Of a DNA stretch of 64,000 nt, positions 1,859-56,100 are shown piece by piece (the stretch's first letter is position 1; the number at the start of each line of letters is the position of its first letter). The stretch lies in assembly GCA_946413525.1 (NCBI GenBank), contig CAMKKZ010000007.1:62001-126000 (forward strand), read 5' to 3'. The notes under the pieces were generated by a model, which saw only the letters and a program-made list of their open reading frames with translations, was not told the DNA's origin and ran no database searches. Position numbers and translations under genes: made by a program. This stretch comes from an uncultured Oribacterium sp. (GTDB lineage Bacteria; Bacillota; Clostridia; Lachnospirales; Lachnospiraceae).

Positions 1859-3907
1859 TCATTCAGGACTCATATAACGTTCCAGGGCACGGAGGAGGGC
1901 GGTATGCCCATCTTTCTTAAGTCCCGGGTCATCGATAAGTATGCTGCGCGCATCCTCATAGGCATCCTCTAGGATTTTCCTGTCCCGATAGATATCCGCA
2001 TATTGAAACCTCATCTCGCCGGACTGGCGCAAGCCAAAGAATTCCCCAGGCCCCCTTAGCTTGAGGTCTTCCTCCGCTATGAAAAAGCCATCATTGGACG
2101 ATGAGAGGATGCCTAATCTTTTTTGGGAAAGCTCGGATTTTTGTGTATCCACAAAGATACAATATCCTTGATAGGTGGAACGCCCAACTCTTCCGCGAAG
2201 CTGATGAAGCGAAGCCAGTCCAAAACGTTCCGCATTCTCTACCATCATAACAGAGGCATTCGGCACATCCACGCCGACTTCAACGACCGTGGTGCATACG
2301 AGTATGTCAATTTCATCGTGAAGGAAGCGTCTCATGACAGCCTCCTTTTCCTCTGCTGCCATTTTCCCGTGCAGCAAGGCCGTCCGGATTTCCCTGGGGA
2401 AAATCCTCCGGATTTCCGCCGCGTAGTCATGGACATTTTGAAGATCGAGAGTATCGTTCGGATCAATCATCGGGCAGACAATGTATGCCTGCCTTCCCTT
2501 TTTCACTTCATCATAGATGAACTTGTAAGCCCTTTGCCGGTATTCCTCACCTACGACGGCATTTTTCCTGGGAAGTCTTCCCGCAGGGAGCCCTTCAAGA
2601 GTGGATACGGACAAATCTGAATAAAGGAACATTGCCATGGTCCTGGGAATAGGTGTTGCCGACATGGCAAGTACATGCGGATATTTCCCCTTTTTTTCCA
2701 AATCCCCGCGCTGCCTGACCCCAAAGCGATGCTGTTCATCCGTGATGACCAGGCCCAGGGCGGCGTATTCAACTTTATCCTGAAATAGGGCGTGCGTCCC
2801 AATAATAAAGTCCACCCCTCCTTCCCTGATTTTCTTTCTGGCCTCCCGTTTTTCTTTTTCCGGCATCGCTCCAATCAAAATCTGGACCTTGAAAGGCAGA
2901 CCCTGCCTTACTATCAAATCCTTCATTTTTTCAAAATGCTGCAAGGCCAAAAGCGCCGTAGGCGCCATAAAAGCTGATTGGAATCCATTTTCTGCCGCTG
3001 CAAGCATTGCCGCAAAGGCAACGATTGTCTTCCCACTTCCCACATCTCCCATCAGGAGCCTGTTCATGATGAAGCCACCCGATAAATCCATGCGGATAGC
3101 TTTCAAAGCCTCCGTTTGTCCCGGAGTCATTCGAAAAGGAAGCTCACTGAGAAAATGATCCATCTGGGCAAACGACTTCATGACATAATCGGAACATTTT
3201 CTTCTCATCTCATCCTTTTTAAAAAGCATGGCTACAGAAAAAATGAAAAGCTCATCATAAGAAAGTCTGCCACGCCAAATGCAAAGCTGAACTGGAGAGG
3301 ATGGAAAGTGCATGCCACGTACGGAGTCGGAAAGGGAAGGGAGCTTCCGTCTCTCGAGAATCTCCTTCGGAAGAAAATCCTCCCTCAGGATTCCCGCTCC
3401 CTCATCTTTTTCCATTATGTCCAGGAGCTGCATGACGGACTTTTGAATCACCTTGTTCCCCAGGCCTTTCGTCTGGCCGTATACAGGCGAAAGCTTTCCC
3501 CTCAGTCCTTCATACTCCTTTATACGGAAAATGACCGGCTGCGCCATAACAAGCTGCCCATCATATCTCGAAACCTTCCCCCAAAAAACCATAACCATGC
3601 CGGAACGAAGCTGTGTCCGCAAATAGGGTGCGTTAAACCAGGTTAATTTGAGACGGCCGGAAATATCCCTGATATAAACTGTAAGGACCGCTTTCCCATT
3701 TGCATAATAAACAGCGGCATCCCTTTCCAGAATGCCGCGTACTGCCCGGGGTCCACCCTCTTCCAGCGTGCCAATCGGCACAGGCTCCGAATAATATATA
3801 TAATCAGCAGGAAAATAATAAAGGAGGTCGCAGGGAGTATAAATACCTATTTTATGAAAAAGCTCCTCTGTCCTGGTTCCGATTCCCTTTAATTCCGATA
3901 ATTCCAT
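1859..3907 (-). CDS. recG: ATP-dependent DNA helicase RecG
   Basis: LLMGDVGSGKTIVAFAAML, DEQHRFGVRQR, QLRGRVGRS motifs. Confidence 0.97.
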   Translation of the reverse strand: MELSELKGIGTRTEELFHKIGIYTPCDLLYYFPADYIYYSEPVPIGTLEEGGPRAVRGILERDAAVYYANGKAVLTVYIRDISGRLKLTWFNAPYLRTQLRSGMVMVFWGKVSRYDGQLVMAQPVIFRIKEYEGLRGKLSPVYGQTKGLGNKVIQKSVMQLLDIMEKDEGAGILREDFLPKEILERRKLPSLSDSVRGMHFPSSPVQLCIWRGRLSYDELFIFSVAMLFKKDEMRRKCSDYVMKSFAQMDHFLSELPFRMTPGQTEALKAIRMDLSGGFIMNRLLMGDVGSGKTIVAFAAMLAAAENGFQSAFMAPTALLALQHFEKMKDLIVRQGLPFKVQILIGAMPEKEKREARKKIREGGVDFIIGTHALFQDKVEYAALGLVITDEQHRFGVRQRGDLEKKGKYPHVLAMSATPIPRTMAMFLYSDLSVSTLEGLPAGRLPRKNAVVGEEYRQRAYKFIYDEVKKGRQAYIVCPMIDPNDTLDLQNVHDYAAEIRRIFPREIRTALLHGKMAAEEKEAVMRRFLHDEIDILVCTTVVEVGVDVPNASVMMVENAERFGLASLHQLRGRVGRSTYQGYCIFVDTQKSELSQKRLGILSSSNDGFFIAEEDLKLRGPGEFFGLRQSGEMRFQYADIYRDRKILEDAYEDARSILIDDPGLKKDGHTALLRALERYMSPE

Positions 3908-5722: not shown

Positions 5723-5791
5723 GTATCAGAGTGGCTTTTTGCCGCTCTGAGTTCTGACATAGCGAACCGCTTGCAGGGCAAACCGGCTCTT
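5723..5791 (-). repeat. Family A two-hairpin repeat, copy A1
   Basis: TATCAGAGTGGCTTTTTGCCGCTCTGAGTTCTGACATAGCGAACCGCTTGCAGGGCAAACCGGCTC; tandem with A2; just upstream of yloV. Confidence 0.9.
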
Positions 5792-5859
5792 GTATCAGAG
5801 TGGTTTTTGCCGCTCTGAGTTCTGACGTAGCGAACCGCTTGCAGGGCAAACCGACTCAT
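5792..5859 (-). repeat. Family A two-hairpin repeat, copy A2
   Basis: Near-identical direct duplicate of A1. Confidence 0.9.
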
Positions 5860-5861
5860 AA

Positions 5862-5995
5862 TTTGCAGCTATTAAGCGCTTTCTGGATTTCGAAGAATTC
5901 CATATGGATAGCTGGCTTTTCATTTGGAATTCTCCGAAACCTTTGCTTGATTGCACAGGGTCGCGCCACAAGCAGGTATTAAATAGCTACTAATT
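5862..5995. repeat. Family B palindromic element, diverged copy B1
   Basis: TTTCGAAGAATTCCATATG...CATTTGGAATTCTCCGAAA inverted repeat flanked by AGCTATTAA...TTAAATAGCT; related to B2 and B3. Confidence 0.65.
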
Positions 5996-7066: not shown

Positions 7067-7519
7067 TCATCCATCAAGCTTTTCATCGCCAGGATTTTCA
7101 TCTTCGTTTATGATTACGGGCTCGGATTCGGACAATATCTCCTCGGCGGTCTCCTCCGCTCCGCGCGAGACCCTGCTTCCGCCGGTGAACCTGTCAAGGA
7201 TATCCGGAATCATATCAAGAACCTTCGTAACGGAATCCTGATTTTTGATATTAATCAGCTTTGTTCTGCCATCCTGCAGCACCAGCATGGCTGTTGGCGT
7301 TATCTTTGAACTCATTGCTCCAACTCCGGAATTTCCACCCTTCTTATTCCTGTCCTGCACAAATGCTCCGGATGCCATGCCGCAGCTGACTTCCATCAGG
7401 GGAATCAAAGTGGCATCTCCAACTTTTATTGGCTCTCCCACAACAGTTTTCGATGTCACAAAGCCGTCCATGCCCTCAAAGAGGCCTTTCATTAGTTCCT
7501 TCGCGTTATTACTCTGCAT
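7067..7519 (-). CDS. GerW/YtfJ family spore germination protein
   Basis: VVGEPIKVGDATLIPLMEVSCGMASGAF...GAMSSKITPTAMLVL. Confidence 0.92.
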   Translation of the reverse strand: MQSNNAKELMKGLFEGMDGFVTSKTVVGEPIKVGDATLIPLMEVSCGMASGAFVQDRNKKGGNSGVGAMSSKITPTAMLVLQDGRTKLINIKNQDSVTKVLDMIPDILDRFTGGSRVSRGAEETAEEILSESEPVIINEDENPGDEKLDG

Positions 7520-8606
7520 GACGTTTCCTCCCCAATAGCAGAAGCATGCGTATCTCCCGCCTGCTCAAAAGCCTCACTGCGGCGACAAACACATGCACAA
7601 GGCGCAAATGTCCCGCAATGTGCAGCTCCCCTTCAATCATTTTTTTATCAAAATAGGGATGAATCTTTATATCCCCCTTCGTAAAGGTATATACAAAGGA
7701 AAGCAGTTCAAGAATTTTAGCCGTTTCATACGGGTCGCCTAAACCATAATCCAGAAAGCCCTGGAGTTTTCGAAAGCGCATATGCCAAAGAACGTATTTC
7801 AATTGTTCCCAAATATATAATACAGCATCCCGGTTTTCATATTCCAAAAACCATCGAAACAGTCGTATGAAGAAATTGTTTTTGAAACGATTTAATCTGA
7901 ACCGACCCTTGGGTTTACGCGATCTCTCGCCTCCCTGCTTCGCGTCATCATCTCCATTATCTTTTACGGTGTTTTCACTCCCCGTCTGTTCAGGATCAGG
8001 CAAATCCGATTCTTGAGAGGCCGGATTACCTGCAGGGCAGGCTTCCTCTTTTTGATCAGGATCAGGCAAATCCGATTCATAGATAGGCGGATCGTCCGCA
8101 GGGCAGGCTTCCTCTTTCTGCTCAGGAGCAGGCGGACCCGGTTCCTGAGCGGCCGGATTGCCCGCAACGCAAGCCGGTTCCGACAAGCTGGAATTTGACT
8201 GTTTTAATTGAGTGGCAACAGATTTCGGAGCGGAATTTGATTCCCCCGAATGTATTGCAACAGATTTCGGAGCAAAATCGGGTTCCCCCGATTGTATTAC
8301 TACAGATTTTGAGGCGGAATCCTTCTTGCTTTCTTTTTCGGATTCATCTTTCTCATTTGAAAAAACCGTCAGAAAAAGAACCGAGGCCTTGTAACTTAAT
8401 CCATCTGATCCATCATACTGCGCATGCAGGGAAATTACGTTAAAAAGCCAGCCCAGACAAAAAAGAACAAATTCTTTGTCCTCTCCCTTTTCCGCATGCA
8501 GTGAATAAGAAACCGGTATCAGAATAATCAGGAAAAAAACAAAAAGCGAGAAAAGGATTATGATCAGGAACAAAAGGGCAAGGAATCTAAATGCTGCGAA
8601 AATCAT
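7509..8606 (-). CDS. DUF2953 domain-containing membrane protein with internal tandem repeats
   Basis: N-terminal TM, C-terminal YGLGDPYETAKILELLSFVYT..., upstream of gerW; central acidic/proline repeat. Confidence 0.75.
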   Translation of the reverse strand: MIFAAFRFLALLFLIIILFSLFVFFLIILIPVSYSLHAEKGEDKEFVLFCLGWLFNVISLHAQYDGSDGLSYKASVLFLTVFSNEKDESEKESKKDSASKSVVIQSGEPDFAPKSVAIHSGESNSAPKSVATQLKQSNSSLSEPACVAGNPAAQEPGPPAPEQKEEACPADDPPIYESDLPDPDQKEEACPAGNPASQESDLPDPEQTGSENTVKDNGDDDAKQGGERSRKPKGRFRLNRFKNNFFIRLFRWFLEYENRDAVLYIWEQLKYVLWHMRFRKLQGFLDYGLGDPYETAKILELLSFVYTFTKGDIKIHPYFDKKMIEGELHIAGHLRLVHVFVAAVRLLSRREIRMLLLLGRKRHAE

Positions 8607-8872
8607 TTCCCGTATCTCTCCTCGATCATATGGCAAAGGAGGCGCAAAGTATCCCGATAACCATAACCTATCCCAAGAACGCGGAGTTCATCCGTACCCA
8701 TCGGGAAGTCCGGCAGGCTGGCGGCAGAATATATTTCATAGAGGTTCGGCGCCTTCGCTTCTGTAATAAGATGGGCAGCTATCTGGAAACGCCCCTCCCT
8801 GAGATTTGCAAGTATATAATCCCTGCGTTCCGCGGCATGTTCGCTCCAATATAGATTATCCGCAAAAATCAT
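8603..8872 (-). CDS. Hypothetical protein (89 aa)
   Basis: Intact ORF overlapping its neighbours by a few nt, consistent with translational coupling; no recognised family. Confidence 0.65.
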   Translation of the reverse strand: MIFADNLYWSEHAAERRDYILANLREGRFQIAAHLITEAKAPNLYEIYSAASLPDFPMGTDELRVLGIGYGYRDTLRLLCHMIEERYGK

Positions 8873-13838: not shown

Positions 13839-13989
13839 CTATTCAGCACCCTGTTCGCAGCCGCCTTCGGAGATTCACGCCCGTTCAGAGCCGCTCCGCG
13901 CCTGGTTCGCCCTTTGGATTTCATGAAATTCCAAATGAAAGGCAAGCTTTCCGTTTGGAATTCCATGAAATCCGGAAGATGCTGAATAG
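13839..13989. repeat. Family B cruciform element, copy B2
   Basis: Outer arms CTATTCAGCA/TGCTGAATAG; inner hairpin GGATTTCATGAAATTCCAAATG..CGTTTGGAATTCCATGAAATCC; long alignable with B3. Confidence 0.85.
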
Positions 13990-14082
13990 TTTCTTATTAT
14001 AGAATACTGTCCAGGGGTTTTTCAAGCCATTTTTCCCTGGGATAATTCGGAAATCAAGTCAAGCAGGAAAGGGGGAAGCATC

Positions 14083-19493: not shown

Positions 19494-19570
19494 TTGACTT
19501 AATGCCGTAGGCATTGATGTCCCATTTGTGACGCGCCAGCGGCACAAATGCATTATGAAAGGCTTGCCTT
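19494..19570. repeat. Family D three-way-junction repeat, copy D1
   Basis: AATGCCGTAGGCATT hairpin + CATTTGTGACGCGCCAGCGGCACAAATG hairpin + CATTATGAAAGGC; tandem with D2. Confidence 0.85.
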
Positions 19571-19648
19571 TCATAATGACTTAATGCCGTAGGCGTTGAT
19601 GTCCCATTTGTGACGCGCCAGCGGCACAAATGCATTATGAAAGGCTCC
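19571..19648. repeat. Family D repeat, copy D2
   Basis: Near-identical direct copy of D1; supplies the purA stop codon (TCATAA). Confidence 0.85.
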
Positions 19649-20936
19649 GCGTTATGAGTGGCTTTCTGCGAAGAATTGCCTGACGTTCCGGCCCATTGGA
19701 AACCATGGTAATGGGGGTTTGGATGCTTTCCTCGATAAAGTCTATATATTTTTTGCAGTTTTCCGGCAAATCTTCATAGTTCTTTATGCCGCGGATGTCA
19801 CATTTCCACCCCGGCAACGTCGTAAAAACAGGTCTGGCTTTGGAAAGAAGATGTGTGACAGGGAAATCCGTTGTCACCTTTCCGTCAATATCATAAGCCG
19901 TACAGATTTTGATTTCAGGAAGGTATCCAAGCACATCCAATACCGTCAGTACGGCTTCCGTTGCGCCCTGCATTACGCAGCCATACTTTGAAGCCACGGC
20001 ATCATACCATCCGACCCGCCTAGGTCTTCCCGTTGTGGCCCCGTATTCCCCCTTGTCCCCGCCCCTGCGTCTCAGCTCTTCTGCCTCTTCTCCGAAAAGT
20101 TCCGAAACAAAATCACCTGCTCCAACAGCGGATGAATAGGCCTTTGTCACCGCGATAATATCCTTGATCTCATACGGCGGTATGCCTGCCCCGACAGCCC
20201 CATAAGCCGCCAGGGTAGAACTGGATGTGACCATTGGGTAAATGCCATGATCGGGATCCTTCAATGTTCCAAGCTGTCCCTCCAGCAGGATCGTCTTTCC
20301 CTGCTTCAGCGCGTCCCTCAAAAACGCGCTTGTATCCGCAAGATACGGCCTGATCATCTCCCTCTGCCTTCGCATTTCATTGAGAAGAGCTTCAAATGAC
20401 AGCGCCGGCTTATGATAGAGGAAGCCAAGCATGACATTTTTAATCTCCACAACCTTTCGGAGCCGGCTTTCCAGGACTTCATCGGAAAAAAGCTCATTGA
20501 CTTGCAGCCCAATCTTCAGGAATTTGTCGGAAAAGAACGGGGCGATTCCGGATTTGGTAGAGCCGTAGCTTTGACCGGCAAGGCGTTCCTCCTCATAGCT
20601 GTCAAAAGCAGCATGATACGGCATCATCACCTGGGCTCTATCGGAAACAAGAATCCGTGGTTCGGGGACGCCATTTTTTCTCAGGGAGTCGAGTTCATTT
20701 ATGAATTTCGGTATGTCAAGCGCGATGCCATTTCCAAGAACCGATGTGACATGATCATAAAAAACGCCGCTGGGCAAAAGGTGAAGCGAAAAACGTCCGA
20801 AATCGTTAATGATCGTATGGCCTGCGTTTGCCCCTCCCTGAAAGCGCACAACCACGTCGGAATCTCCCGCCAATAAATCCGTTATCTTCCCTTTTCCTTC
20901 ATCTCCCCAGTTTGCACCTACAATTGCACGAACCAT
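19635..20936 (-). CDS. purA: Adenylosuccinate synthetase
   Basis: MVRAIVGANWGDEGKGKITDLLAGDSDVVVRFQGGANAGHT. Confidence 0.96.
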   Translation of the reverse strand: MVRAIVGANWGDEGKGKITDLLAGDSDVVVRFQGGANAGHTIINDFGRFSLHLLPSGVFYDHVTSVLGNGIALDIPKFINELDSLRKNGVPEPRILVSDRAQVMMPYHAAFDSYEEERLAGQSYGSTKSGIAPFFSDKFLKIGLQVNELFSDEVLESRLRKVVEIKNVMLGFLYHKPALSFEALLNEMRRQREMIRPYLADTSAFLRDALKQGKTILLEGQLGTLKDPDHGIYPMVTSSSTLAAYGAVGAGIPPYEIKDIIAVTKAYSSAVGAGDFVSELFGEEAEELRRRGGDKGEYGATTGRPRRVGWYDAVASKYGCVMQGATEAVLTVLDVLGYLPEIKICTAYDIDGKVTTDFPVTHLLSKARPVFTTLPGWKCDIRGIKNYEDLPENCKKYIDFIEESIQTPITMVSNGPERQAILRRKPLITRSLS

Positions 20937-30176: not shown

Positions 30177-30332
30177 CTATCCAGCACCCTATTCGCAGCC
30201 GCCTTTGGCGACTGCGAATGTGGGCGTTCAGAGGCGCTTCGCGCCTTGTCCGCCCTCTGGATTTCAGAGAATTCCAAATGAAAAGCAAGCTTCCCATTTG
30301 GAATTCTCTGAAATCCAGAGGGTGCAGAATAG
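30177..30332. repeat. Family B cruciform element, copy B3
   Basis: CTATCCAGCACCCTATTCGCAGCCGCC...GGATTTCAGAGAATTCCAAATGAAAAGCAAGCTTCCCATTTGGAATTCTCTGAAATCC...; immediately upstream of hpf. Confidence 0.85.
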
Positions 30333-31067: not shown

Positions 31068-31286
31068 ATGGCAAGGAAACGGACAAAAATGACGCTGGCG
31101 GAACAGGTCGTGTCAAAAAAAGAAGAGATTGAAGAGGCTAAAGCGCATCTTCAGAAACTACAGGAGGAACTGACAAGTCTGGAGGATCAGCTCCTAGCTG
31201 AAGAAAAGAAGTTAGTGATGGCCGCAATTGATGCCAGCAACAAGAGCACGGATGAAATTATGGCCTTCCTCAAAGGGGAGACCTGA
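31068..31286 (+). CDS. Small coiled-coil protein, hypothetical
   Basis: MARKRTKMTLAEQVVSKKEEIEEAKAHLQKLQEELTSLEDQLLAEEKK...; transcribed after hpf, terminator downstream. Confidence 0.65.
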   Translation: MARKRTKMTLAEQVVSKKEEIEEAKAHLQKLQEELTSLEDQLLAEEKKLVMAAIDASNKSTDEIMAFLKGET

Positions 31287-31440
31287 TGACCTGATGACGC
31301 ATCCGCTTAAGAGACCTGATGACGCGATATCGTATCCGCTTATGAGAATCTTGATGACGTGAAATCTCATCCGCTTATAAGGGTCTTGATGACGTGAAGT
31401 CGCATCCTCTTATTAGGGTCTCGATGACACGATAACGCAT
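31287..31440 (+). repeat. Degenerate tandem repeat, about 35-nt period, 4-5 units
   Basis: CTTGATGACGTGAAATCTCATCCGCTTATAAGGGT / CTTGATGACGTGAAGTCGCATCCTCTTATTAGGGT / CCTGATGACGCGATATCGTATCCGCTTATGAGAAT. Confidence 0.85.
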
Positions 31441-31559: not shown

Positions 31560-33305
31560 CTAAAAAACCATGCCCTTCCGTTCCGGAAGATTCGAAAGGA
31601 TATTTCCCTTCCTTTCCAGCATGAGGTCCATCCTCTCCATGTAACGGCGGATATCCTTCCCATTGTCACATCGGCAAATGCGTGGCGAAGAAAAACGGTT
31701 TCCTGTCAGGTTCCGAAGCCCTTCTTCACCCTCTCCCACCTCAGGTCCTTGACCATTTCCTCGATCTATTCGTGAGGATTTTAACCGCTCTGAATTCTGA
31801 CACAGATAACCGCCCGCGGAGCAAACCTGCTCATCCTCCTCAAATACGATGACCTTGGATGCCGAACCCGCGCCGCAGCCCATAACCGTATGCTTTTCCC
31901 CCATCATAAGAATATTGTAAAGGCATTCCTTCCCGGCGCGGCTGTACCCCACGTTTTCCAGATTTCCGGACATGTTCTTCTGTCTGTATAGATAGTACGG
32001 AAACAACGAGAGCTCCCCCGCGGCATATTCCGCAGCCATCATCATCCGTTCCATCTCCGTCAAAAGGAGCGTTTCACCACCCGGGAGCTCCTCCTCGTGG
32101 AGGGTGAAATCTGCTCCCGCCCTGTAAACCCCCTCCCATTCCTGTTTTTCCGTTCTCAGCCTGGCGGCCCGTTTCACGGACAGGGAGTGCACTGTCAGAC
32201 TATCGGGATGGAGACCGGCAATCCGGCAAAGCGTTTCGGTAAGTTCGGGAAGTCTCTCCCCGGGAAGCCCCAGAATGATATCCATATTGATGTTATCAAA
32301 TCCCGACTCCCTGGCAAGCTGGTAGGAACGGTACACATCTTCCACGCTGTGCCTGCGCCCGATCAGGTCAAGGGTTTTTTGAAGAAAGCTCTGGGGATTG
32401 ACGGAAATTCGGTCAACACCGGATGACCTGAGGATTTCAAGCTTTGCTTTCGTGATGGAATCAGGCCTTCCCGCTTCCACAGTGAACTCGCATATCCTGG
32501 AAAAGGGATGGGCGAAGCACTCCTCCCTGATAATATCCATCAGCTTTAAAAGCGCATCCTCAGGCAGCGCGGTAGGTGTCCCGCCGCCCACATAGATCGT
32601 CTGCAATGCCCTGCCCCGCTTTCCGCACATCTCCTCAACGCAGAAACGGATTTCCCTCCGCAGGCAGTCAAGGTAGGCAGGAATGCTGCTTTCCCATTTG
32701 GATACGGGATTGGACGTGAAGGAACAATAAAGACACCTTGTCGGGCAAAAGGGTATGCCGATATAAAGGCTCCACCCTTTCCTTGCCGGAAGACCCGTAA
32801 CCTCCTTAAGCCTTTGCAGGCTCTCCCGCTCCCTCATGGCGATATCCAAAAGCAGATCGAGCTTCCGCTCCCCTATCTGGTATTTTTCGGAAAGCATTTT
32901 CCGAATGGAAAAAAGAGCCTCCTCCGTGACCCTTCCCTCAGGATCCCGGGAAGACGCTTCATAGAGCATGGGCTCCGCCAAAGTTACCGGACGAATCCCC
33001 GTAAGATTCCCCCATGGAAGAATGCGTCCGGTCATGGAGCAAAGCGTTTTATAAAGGTCTTGTTTGATGATGGATTTGTCTTCCGGACGCCTTCCCGTAA
33101 GGGGAAGGCTGTTAGAAAGAATGGAAAGGGTCAGGGAAGGTTCGGAATCCATCGGCTCTCTTCCTGCCGTTCTTTCCAATTCATAGTAAGAAATGTCATT
33201 ATCTTTTACAATCTGGAAGCTTTCGCCCGGGAAAAAGGCTTTGACAAGCTCCCTTATCTCTTCCTGGAACAGTACTGTTTTGGAATCCAGATTGAGTCTG
33301 ATCAT
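31560..33305 (-). CDS. hemZ: Coproporphyrinogen dehydrogenase HemZ-like radical SAM protein, with in-frame repeat insertion near C-terminus
   Basis: YIGIPFCPTRCLYCSF CxxxCxxC, IYVGGGTPTAL; C-terminal part interrupted by a segment matching family A. Confidence 0.88.
   Translation of the reverse strand: MIRLNLDSKTVLFQEEIRELVKAFFPGESFQIVKDNDISYYELERTAGREPMDSEPSLTLSILSNSLPLTGRRPEDKSIIKQDLYKTLCSMTGRILPWGNLTGIRPVTLAEPMLYEASSRDPEGRVTEEALFSIRKMLSEKYQIGERKLDLLLDIAMRERESLQRLKEVTGLPARKGWSLYIGIPFCPTRCLYCSFTSNPVSKWESSIPAYLDCLRREIRFCVEEMCGKRGRALQTIYVGGGTPTALPEDALLKLMDIIREECFAHPFSRICEFTVEAGRPDSITKAKLEILRSSGVDRISVNPQSFLQKTLDLIGRRHSVEDVYRSYQLARESGFDNINMDIILGLPGERLPELTETLCRIAGLHPDSLTVHSLSVKRAARLRTEKQEWEGVYRAGADFTLHEEELPGGETLLLTEMERMMMAAEYAAGELSLFPYYLYRQKNMSGNLENVGYSRAGKECLYNILMMGEKHTVMGCGAGSASKVIVFEEDEQVCSAGGYLCQNSERLKSSRIDRGNGQGPEVGEGEEGLRNLTGNRFSSPRICRCDNGKDIRRYMERMDLMLERKGNILSNLPERKGMVF
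31769..31835 (-). repeat. Family A repeat inside hemZ ORF, copy A4
   Basis: CCGCTCTGAATTCTGACACAGATAACCGCCCGCGGAGCAAACCTGCTCAT versus A2 CCGCTCTGAGTTCTGACGTAGCGAACCGCTTGCAGGGCAAACCGACTCAT. Confidence 0.82.
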
Positions 33306-40200: not shown

Positions 40201-40260
40201 TATCAAATTGGTTTTTGACCATTCTGATTCCGTGACAAAGCGATACGGCATCGTATCTTA
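40201..40260 (-). repeat. Family A repeat, copy A5
   Basis: TATCAAATTGGTTTTTGACCATTCTGATTCCGTGACAAAGCGATACGGCATCGTATC; abuts pyrB Shine-Dalgarno. Confidence 0.85.
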
Positions 40261-43825: not shown

Positions 43826-44000
43826 GAATCAGAGTGGACCTTGGTTACCCTGATTCAATTTCATACCGATGCGGAACGCGTCAGCAAGGCCACTTTATCA
43901 GAGTGGGCTTTGGCTACCCTGATTCATTTTCATACCGATGCGGCATCATGTCAGCAAGGCCCCTTTATCAGAGTGGTGGGCTTTAGCCGCTCTCATCATG
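43826..44000 (-). repeat. Family A repeats, tandem copies A9, A10 and truncated A11
   Basis: AATCAGAGTGGACCTTGGTTACCCTGATTCAATTTCATACCGATGCGGAACGCGTCAGCAAGGCC repeated about every 70 nt between pyrC and pyrK. Confidence 0.88.
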
Positions 44001-45375
44001 TGACATTATGAAATGCTTGAGGGGGGAGGCTGATTCCCCTCCTTCGGTCATAAACCTCCCGGCCGCCCACGAAGGTCTTCACCGTTTCCCCCTGCATCTC
44101 CATGCCGGAAAAAAGACTTTTCTTTGCCTTTGTATAAAAGACGGAAGGATCCGCCAGATAAATCCGGGAAAGATCCAGCACGGCAATGTCCGCGTCCGCG
44201 CCTTCCTCGATATAAAGGGGTCCCGGGAGGGAGAAAATCCTGCGGGGATTTACAGCCATCAGCTCTACCAGGCGTTCCAGGGTGATAGCCCCCTCTCCCG
44301 GGAGCGCCTGCCTTGCCCTGTCAACCCTGCTTTCACCGCAGGTCTCCGGGTTCCTCAGCACAAGATTATGATACAGGGAAGGGAAGCACGTTTCCAGCCC
44401 CGGGATGCCGAAGGCGGATCCGGCCAGACCCCTTGACTTCTCATCAAGGGAATGGGGGGCATGATCGGTAATGATGCAGTCGATCGTACCGTCCCTGATC
44501 CCTTCCAAAAGGGCCTCCCGGTCCTCCCTGCCGCGAATAGGGGGATTCATTTTCCAGCCGCCATCCTCTTCCAGATCCATATCCGTAAACATCAGGTAAT
44601 GTGGCCCGGTCTCGCAGCTTACGGGAAGCCCTTCCGCTTTAGCCTCCCGGATAATGCGGACAGATTCCTTCGTTGACACATGGCATACATGGTAACGGCT
44701 CCCGGTCTCCCTGACCAGGCTCACATCCCTCTCCACCTGCTTCCATTCCGAGGCGCTGTTAATCCCCTTTAAACCATGCCGTCTCGCGTAAAGGCCGTCA
44801 TGAACGCATCCTTCGGGGGAAAGCTCTCCCTCATCCTCACAATGGGCGACGACCGGCTTCCCCAGTTTCCGCGCCATTTCCATGGCGGCACGCATGACGC
44901 CTTCTTCCTGCACGCCGGTCCCGTCATCTGAAAATCCGACTACATAAGGCGCGATCCCCTCCATGTCGGAAAGAACTCCCCTCCCGCTCCGGTCCCTGGT
45001 AATCGTCCCATAAGGGTATACCGGGATTACAGCGCTTTCCCGGATGATCTCCAGCTCTTTCGAAAGGTCCTCCACATTGGAAGGGGGCGGATTCAGGTTC
45101 GGCATGGCGCATATCCCTGTATAGCCCCCATGGGCGGCGGCAGCGCTCCCGGAAGCGATGCTTTCCTTATACGAAAAACCGGGTTCCCGCAGATGTACAT
45201 GTACATCGACAAAACCCGGAACAATATGAAACCCCTCTGCGTCAAAAACCTCTGCCCCCGAAGCCTTTTCTCCGGAAGGATCAAGAGCAATCCTCCCATC
45301 CGAAAGAAGGATGTCCCGTCTTTCAAAGCCGGAGCGGGTAAAGGCCATGCCGTTTTTTAATAAGATTTTCGTCAT
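43996..45375 (-). CDS. pyrC: Dihydroorotase
   Basis: GFVDVHVHLREPGFSYKESI; CIITDHAPHSLDEKS. Confidence 0.96.
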   Translation of the reverse strand: MTKILLKNGMAFTRSGFERRDILLSDGRIALDPSGEKASGAEVFDAEGFHIVPGFVDVHVHLREPGFSYKESIASGSAAAAHGGYTGICAMPNLNPPPSNVEDLSKELEIIRESAVIPVYPYGTITRDRSGRGVLSDMEGIAPYVVGFSDDGTGVQEEGVMRAAMEMARKLGKPVVAHCEDEGELSPEGCVHDGLYARRHGLKGINSASEWKQVERDVSLVRETGSRYHVCHVSTKESVRIIREAKAEGLPVSCETGPHYLMFTDMDLEEDGGWKMNPPIRGREDREALLEGIRDGTIDCIITDHAPHSLDEKSRGLAGSAFGIPGLETCFPSLYHNLVLRNPETCGESRVDRARQALPGEGAITLERLVELMAVNPRRIFSLPGPLYIEEGADADIAVLDLSRIYLADPSVFYTKAKKSLFSGMEMQGETVKTFVGGREVYDRRRGISLPPQAFHNVT

Positions 45376-47163: not shown

Positions 47164-47233
47164 TTATGAGAGTGGGTTTTCTCACCCTGATTCCATGTCA
47201 TACCGGACTGCTTACGGCGCAAGTCGGCTCCTT
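47164..47233 (-). repeat. Family A repeat, copy A12
   Basis: TTATGAGAGTGGGTTTTCTCACCCTGATTCCATGTCATACCGGACTGCTTACGGCGCAAGTCGGCTCC. Confidence 0.75.
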
Positions 47234-47342: not shown

Positions 47343-47423
47343 GGCAAGCTGCCCTGCCGGAAACCGGTTTGCTCCGATAATGCTTCGCTATGTAAAAACT
47401 CAGAGTAAAAAACACTTTGACAG
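47343..47423 (+). repeat. Family A repeat, copy A13 (orientation reversed, upstream of + strand coaX)
   Basis: AAACCGGTTTGCTCCGATAATGCTTCGCTATGTAAAAACTCAGAGTAAAAAACACTTTGACAG; matches the reverse complement of A1. Confidence 0.78.
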
Positions 47424-47471
47424 ATGAGCATATTGAACATATGGCTGACTATGATGAAAAGAGGTTTCCTT

Positions 47472-55914: not shown

Positions 55915-56100
55915 CAGTCAAGTATGAAAGGCAAGCCTTTCATACTTCATTTGTGCCGCTGGCGCGACACAAATGGGACTCAATGCCTGCGGCATCAAGT
56001 CAAAGTATGAAAAGCAAGCTTTTCATACTTCATTTGTGCCGCTGACGCGTCACAGATGGGTCTCAATGCCTGCGGCATCAAGTCAAAGTATGAAAGGCTG
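55915..56100. repeat. Family D repeats, tandem copies D3 and D4 (inverted relative to D1/D2)
   Basis: CTTTCATACTTCATTTGTGCCGCTGGCGCGACACAAATGGGACTCAATGCCTGCGGCATCAAGTCAAAGTATGAAAAGC, twice. Confidence 0.88.

Follow-up and report, generated by a model that had tools for sequence, protein, structure and literature searches.

Among short palindromic repeats inside protein-coding genes, the Rickettsia palindromic elements (RPEs; Ogata et al. 2000, 2002; summarised in PMC10969869 and PMC3767692) measure 100-150 bp, lie in ORFs without destruction of the reading frame, and occur also in Wolbachia (PMC3767692; PMC3733652). In R. conorii, 44 integrations from ten families have been reported, nearly half of them in ORFs (PMC10969869), and the palindromic elements of Wolbachia go back to Ogata, Suhre and Claverie (2005, cited in PMC3733652 and PMC3767692). 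A further class, the PARCELs, comprises palindromic coding repeats of 25 residues, which build up amphipathic domains of repeats in functionally unassigned ORFs of many clades (PMC2996958). REP elements are extragenic, 20-40 nt long and associated with RAYT transposases (PMC2817692, PMC3116915, PMC3733652), and the enterobacterial repeats RU-1, RU-2 and RU-3 (ERIC-type) are MITE-like sequences of 127, 168 and 103 bp, reported with ORFs and with intragenic copies (PMC2759123). For Lachnospiraceae and other Firmicutes, the literature searched yielded no account of palindromic repeats inserted in frame, which is weak evidence of absence, most subscription papers lying outside the search.

The repeat described here, family A, came to light in a window of 64,000 nucleotides (G000:C7:62001-126000) from a 4.02-Mb Lachnospiraceae draft genome in 70 contigs, in which one copy lies within hemZ. 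With a probability of about 90%, we read this segment of hemZ as a single old copy of a non-autonomous, short mobile repeat that has spread through one Lachnospiraceae lineage, an RPE-like selfish insertion and not a functional HemZ domain. Like RPEs, family A is a dispersed, multicopy, hairpin-forming repeat (179 core matches; two-hairpin fold), it lies in frame within many conserved genes that are unrelated to one another (38 arrays), and its sites appear compatible with the fold of the host protein (loops in MnmG, HisD, TatD and IspH; low-pLDDT regions in HemZ and MnmG). RPEs, however, are elements of ~100-150 bp from obligate intracellular alphaproteobacteria and often occupy the same site in the orthologues of several species, whereas family A has a unit of 69 nt, is often tandem, belongs to one Lachnospiraceae genome and lacks copies in sister species. 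The likeness to RPEs put forward in the first-pass annotation therefore holds as a behavioural analogy and is not supported as family membership, given the Lachnospiraceae host, the shorter unit and the detection of the element in this one genome only; by description, size and host, family A is set apart from the RPE families. With the Wolbachia elements it shares the character of a protein-coding palindromic repeat outside Rickettsia proper, although theirs are alphaproteobacterial and the likeness is one of description. PARCELs resemble it in being palindromic and coding, in having a unit of comparable size (25 aa) and in forming tandem arrays within ORFs, but the family A unit has 23 residues, comes in 1-6 copies and interrupts conserved enzymes. 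Many non-autonomous hairpin repeats per genome and the presence of a RAYT recall the REP/REPIN systems, yet REPs are extragenic and of 20-40 nt, and the RAYT of this genome has what is probably its own GGGGACGG REPIN. The RU repeats, finally, are likewise MITE-like with ORFs and intragenic copies, but at 127, 168 and 103 bp they are longer than the 69-nt unit, and they too are compared by description. By analogy, the comparison supports the view that family A works like an RPE yet would be a distinct element from another phylum. A survey of the features is compiled in Table 1.

Table 1. Features of the hemZ locus, of the repeat families A and B in the window, and of a further repeat on other contigs (window positions unless a contig is named).
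Feature	Position	Strand	Evidence or remark
hemZ, coproporphyrinogen dehydrogenase	31560-33305	-	581 aa; TIGR03994 465 bits vs cut-off 321
Family A unit within hemZ	31765-31832	-	nhmmer E 6.9e-13, model 1-68 of 68; in HemZ frame
Remainder of the HemZ-specific insertion, RGNGQGPEVGEGEEGLRNLTGNRFSS	31687-31764	-	missing from homologues; unlike the repeat
Intergenic tandem pair, family A	5724-5789 + 5793-5857	-	nhmmer E 4e-21, 9e-18
Family A-like unit, intergenic or 5' leader, not gene-internal	47165-47230	-	nhmmer E 6e-9
Family A-like unit, intergenic	47364-47424	+ (opposite strand)	nhmmer E 3e-8
Family B unit, just 5' of a start codon	41832-41899	-	repeat grouping + profile
Tandem family B-type units, intergenic	43828-44024	-	repeat grouping + profile
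Diverged family B-type unit, intergenic	40201-40253	-	repeat grouping + profile
GGGGACGGTCCTTTTGTG repeats	C9:1536-9869, C27, C42, C56		

The E-value of the hemZ unit was computed over 651 kb with a profile derived from the units of this genome; in ten shuffled windows the lowest E reached was 0.9. Repeat grouping within the window joined 31779-31832 to 5736-5789, with 80% identity over 54 nt, and to 5804-5857. The proposal of the first-pass annotation that a repeat is inserted in frame in hemZ is borne out by both the profile match and this identity: the unit, read in the HemZ frame, encodes EQVCSAGGYLCQNSERLKSSRID, and the same frame is open in the intergenic copy at 5724-5789, as had been stated. 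The extent had been put at about 50 nt, which has to be corrected to a unit of 69 nt.

HemZ was compared, by alignment, with its counterparts in genomes of the same genus and family, and with homologues from the genome collection. The spacing between the motifs G-A-G-x-x-[ST]-K and N-[GV]-K amounts to 63 aa in the HemZ of the window and mostly to 12-19 aa (range 11-22) in the homologues. About 23 of the extra residues derive from the repeat, and the ~26 that follow do not. The family A segment is absent from the HemZ homologues compared, including 16 of the same genus, as had been anticipated, and the contrary case of an ancestral domain common to the homologues was looked for among them and not seen; the adjacent stretch of ~26 aa is missing from them as well and is not repeat-like. 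The possibility that RGNGQGPEVGEGEEGLRNLTGNRFSS is a second, decayed unit was ruled out for want of similarity to the repeat (shuffle p = 0.91). It might be argued that the whole segment is an ancestral or lineage-specific functional HemZ domain whose likeness to intergenic repeats is incidental, in view of the divergence of the hemZ copy, which has lost hairpin I, and of the variable insertions that HemZ of this genus carries elsewhere. This is scarcely credible against a DNA identity of 80% to an intergenic copy and an E-value of 6.9e-13, the absence of the segment from same-genus and other homologues, the recurrence of the same peptide in unrelated enzymes, and the predicted disorder of the region, residues 498-537 having a pLDDT below 50 in the AlphaFold2 model, flanked by two strands.

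Two further features of the locus may be recorded here. The variable insertions in HemZ of this genus are of low complexity, differ in length, and lie at ~265-270 and ~400-415 (window HemZ numbering), unrelated to the repeat. At 31278-31413, four tandem direct repeats of 33-35 nt (GACCTGATGACGCGAT...CATCCGCTTA) separate a short ORF from hemZ.

The family A unit comprises 69 nt or 23 codons (EPICPAGGSLCQNSERQKPTLID) and occurs singly or in tandem; the seed unit GAGCCGATTTGCCCCGCAGGCGGTTCGCTATGTCAGAATTCAGAGCGGCAAAAACCCACTCTGATAGAT, which reads EPICPAGGSLCQNSERQKPTLID, agrees with the consensus of the copies. A genome-wide census with a 23-nt core (at most three mismatches) returned 179 matches and none for the reversed control, and 381 units were found within the 651 kb of stretches fetched around the matches. 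This sample is enriched for the sense peptide, and in-gene counts taken from it are lower bounds. Single units make up 101 of the 214 arrays, the others being tandems of 2-6 in which 69 nt is the commonest spacing, and a half-unit spacing of 36 nt is found too. Units within an array are more alike (identity 0.814) than those of different arrays (0.730), which indicates that arrays grow in place. The consensus folds into two hairpins (z = -2.5) with modest covariation, 19 compensatory changes against 11.1 ± 2.8 in shuffles. Arrays start with GAG and finish with TGAG, and at the flanks of 53 arrays with complete ends no target-site duplication beyond GAG was seen, both observations bearing on the comparison with MITEs.

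Among the genomes sampled, family A is lineage-specific as judged by its core sequence, being confined to one genome. No core match was found in 16 other genomes of the genus, and 396 other Lachnospiraceae yielded a single match with two mismatches and no credible copy; this match, in genome G103, was rejected as a true copy, since it extends over just 26 of the 68 model positions and is probably due to chance. Neither the viral contigs, searched for the exact core, nor the plasmids gave a family A match, and the sole Rfam match in the window was a tRNA.

The window holds other repeats. An ORF at 7512-8687 (minus strand) contains three tandem 66-nt coding repeats (7987-8184), read as KEEACPAGNPASQESDLPDPEQ-like units, whose peptide resembles that of family A; the DNA profile misses them, and they may represent an old array or a coincidence. 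Another dispersed palindromic repeat, around CTGGATTTCAGAGAATTCCAAATG, has 41-nt arms 2 nt apart and lies at 30246-30329, 5861-5939 and 13882-14000, and an 82/83-nt tandem repeat family with internal palindromes forms two pairs in opposite orientation (19495-19658 and 55920-56085).

The hemZ copy has many counterparts in other genes. When 187 arrays (E < 1e-3) were placed against ORFs of at least 200 aa, 38 were found in sense frame 1, two in sense frame 3 and seven in antisense ORFs, five of which look spurious by inspection (those at C12:35379 and C48:7681 may be real). A search of the genome for the peptide, which had been suggested as a check, was equally productive: of 146 matches, many fell within long ORFs coding for unrelated proteins. 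About 18-20 hosts were recognised by curated NCBIfam families, a host being counted if the repeat falls within or directly beside the family region. They include hemZ, mnmG, hisD, ispH, prmC, priA, rseP, coaX, rimM, tatD and nagA, an AddA/RecB-type helicase, an RsmF-type methyltransferase, an ECF sigma factor, an ABC ATPase, a LysR regulator, an FMN-dependent reductase and an ATP-grasp/HAD fusion. In argJ, lacZ and a few others the repeat precedes the recognised domain, and these N-terminal cases were left uncounted because the start codon may lie past the repeat.

That such genes might be products of assembly, with repeats misjoined into them, or might be dead, is highly improbable. The genome is a draft in 70 contigs, and two of these, C7 and C1, begin within copies of a sister repeat, family B; the host genes, however, run on in frame with high scores to curated families, hemZ and mnmG are intact with no second full-length copy found in the genome, and misjoins would not preserve frame and orientation.

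The positions of the inserts were mapped by phmmer searches of the host flanks against solved structures, one chain each. Residues 140/174 on either side of the MnmG insert correspond to 154/154 of 3cp2, 69/125 of IspH to 24/27 of 3dnf, 135/192 of TatD to 109/117 of 1j6o, and 88/156 of HisD to 75/78 of 9lbv; as far as homologous structures tell, the inserts in these four proteins are in loops or turns, positions compatible with the fold. The repeat is absent from MnmG of 24 relatives (14 of the same genus), in which the loop is variable in length within the genus and carries an unrelated insert in one relative. The AlphaFold2 models of HemZ and MnmG are of high confidence as a whole (mean pLDDT 85.5 and 81.6), but that of MnmG too has a pLDDT below 50 at residues 141-170, the insert, again flanked by two strands.

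With two hairpins and fixed ends that could act as signals, and with some inserts adjoining catalytic motifs such as the PriA Walker A and a flavoprotein Rossmann fold, one may ask whether the element is removed at the level of RNA or translation, by splicing or ribosome bypass, and never enters the protein. We hold this to be very unlikely: an open frame, which the genic copies keep, would be needless if they were removed, and hairpin I has been lost from the hemZ copy.

The inserted peptide is probably tolerated filler, predicted to be translated. The genic copies diverge from the consensus to the same degree at the three codon positions (0.186/0.181/0.180), with no excess of third-position changes, which indicates that selection does not maintain the amino-acid sequence of the peptide. 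A selected role of benefit to the host proteins, be it as a binding module, a tag for degradation or a linker with a function, would account for the common frame and orientation of 38 arrays and for the recurrent Cys-containing, hydrophilic core. Besides the codon positions, it has against it that the hosts have no pathway in common, that the inserts are predicted to be disordered and that the orientation bias extends to arrays outside genes, and we consider it very unlikely. An open frame by itself is nothing special, since about two of the six frames are open in a random stretch of 69 nt. Unit spacing is a multiple of 3 in 40/40 genic cases vs 64/101 elsewhere, a contrast that is partly built in because an open frame defined the genic arrays.

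Family B offers a comparison in this respect. Its unit of 70 nt, not a multiple of three, has hairpin I in common with family A and a different, GATGCGGCATCGCATC-type hairpin II; 69 matches were found genome-wide at E 1e-5, some of them directly upstream of a start codon, as at coaX. In loci sampled by DNA similarity, the coding region proper is interrupted by none of 30 B arrays and by 6 of 30 A arrays, the latter in the sense frame; one B array lies in the leader 5' of a start codon, and one A array in an antisense ORF. With the leader and antisense cases counted, p = 0.05 for this small sample of 30 versus 30. The contrast between A and B is consistent with length being what determines whether a copy survives in a gene.

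Orientation of the arrays was examined with simple gene calls. Between co-directional genes, 63 arrays point along transcription and 11 against it (p 5e-10), so the bias exists outside genes too. Where the leading strand of a contig is clear, arrays flanked by co-directional genes on that strand run with it in a ratio of 58:6, and those between convergent or divergent gene pairs in a ratio of 22:15 (p 3e-4 for the difference). Lagging-strand genes are too few for a direct separation of transcription and replication; replication alone would, however, give an equal bias in both classes of gene pair, which favours transcription. The data point to a bias that follows transcription, by way of insertion preference or selection. 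Integration linked to transcription, by way of an RNA step or into a single strand of DNA under transcription, is a tentative proposal, and on balance an unlikely one: the sense strand would follow transcription in genes and elsewhere alike, and coding sequence would have become a habitat owing to a length divisible by three and an open sense strand. The bias could equally well reflect selection against copies in the opposite orientation.

As to the mobiliser, the transposase search covered the Y1_Tnp family and found a single gene of this kind in the genome, of RAYT type (L301, G000:C9:6677-7441). That this RAYT moves family A as REP-type elements concerns the mobiliser alone and is compatible with the mobile-repeat reading of hemZ. 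It would agree with the gene being the sole Y1_Tnp gene found and lying ~150 nt or less from a family A array (three full units and a partial one), and with the hairpins and constant GAG ends of the units. This array, however, is a direct tandem on one side of the gene, and it is another repeat, GGGGACGGTCCTTTTGTG, that flanks the RAYT; its 35 genomic copies are clustered on the same contig and often form inverted pairs like those of a REPIN, and it is absent or nearly so in the 16 same-genus genomes. RAYT-like genes, moreover, occur in same-genus genomes that lack family A. The role of family A as the cognate repeat of the RAYT was downgraded, the flanking inverted position being filled by GGGGACGGTCCTTTTGTG, the GGGGACGG REPIN that is the more likely cognate of this RAYT, and mobilisation of family A by the RAYT is doubtful. 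Close to the RAYT gene there is also a 25-nt tandem array around CCCGGGATTATTGTAATAACAAGA, with provisional coordinates L301 4367-4560 (G000:C9), or 2968-3161 of the searched stretch.

For family A as an RPE-like mobile repeat the following course can be envisaged. We infer that a transposase acting in trans would insert the copies, and that a genic insertion would survive only with a length of 3n nt, an open frame and a site tolerating a disordered loop; the surviving copy would then be translated as filler. Arrays would enlarge as whole units of 69 nt or half units of 36 nt are duplicated in tandem, and the copies would afterwards decay through mutation.

In genome annotation, family A peptides should not be taken for conserved domains. 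In-frame palindromic insertion is known so far chiefly from Rickettsia and Wolbachia, which live inside cells and have reduced genomes. Its occurrence in a Lachnospiraceae genome of 4 Mb, where one lineage-specific family has hit about 40 candidate genes, suggests that the habit is not tied to intracellular life, and the copy number is high enough to ask how inserts in essential enzymes survive and how proteins gain loops.
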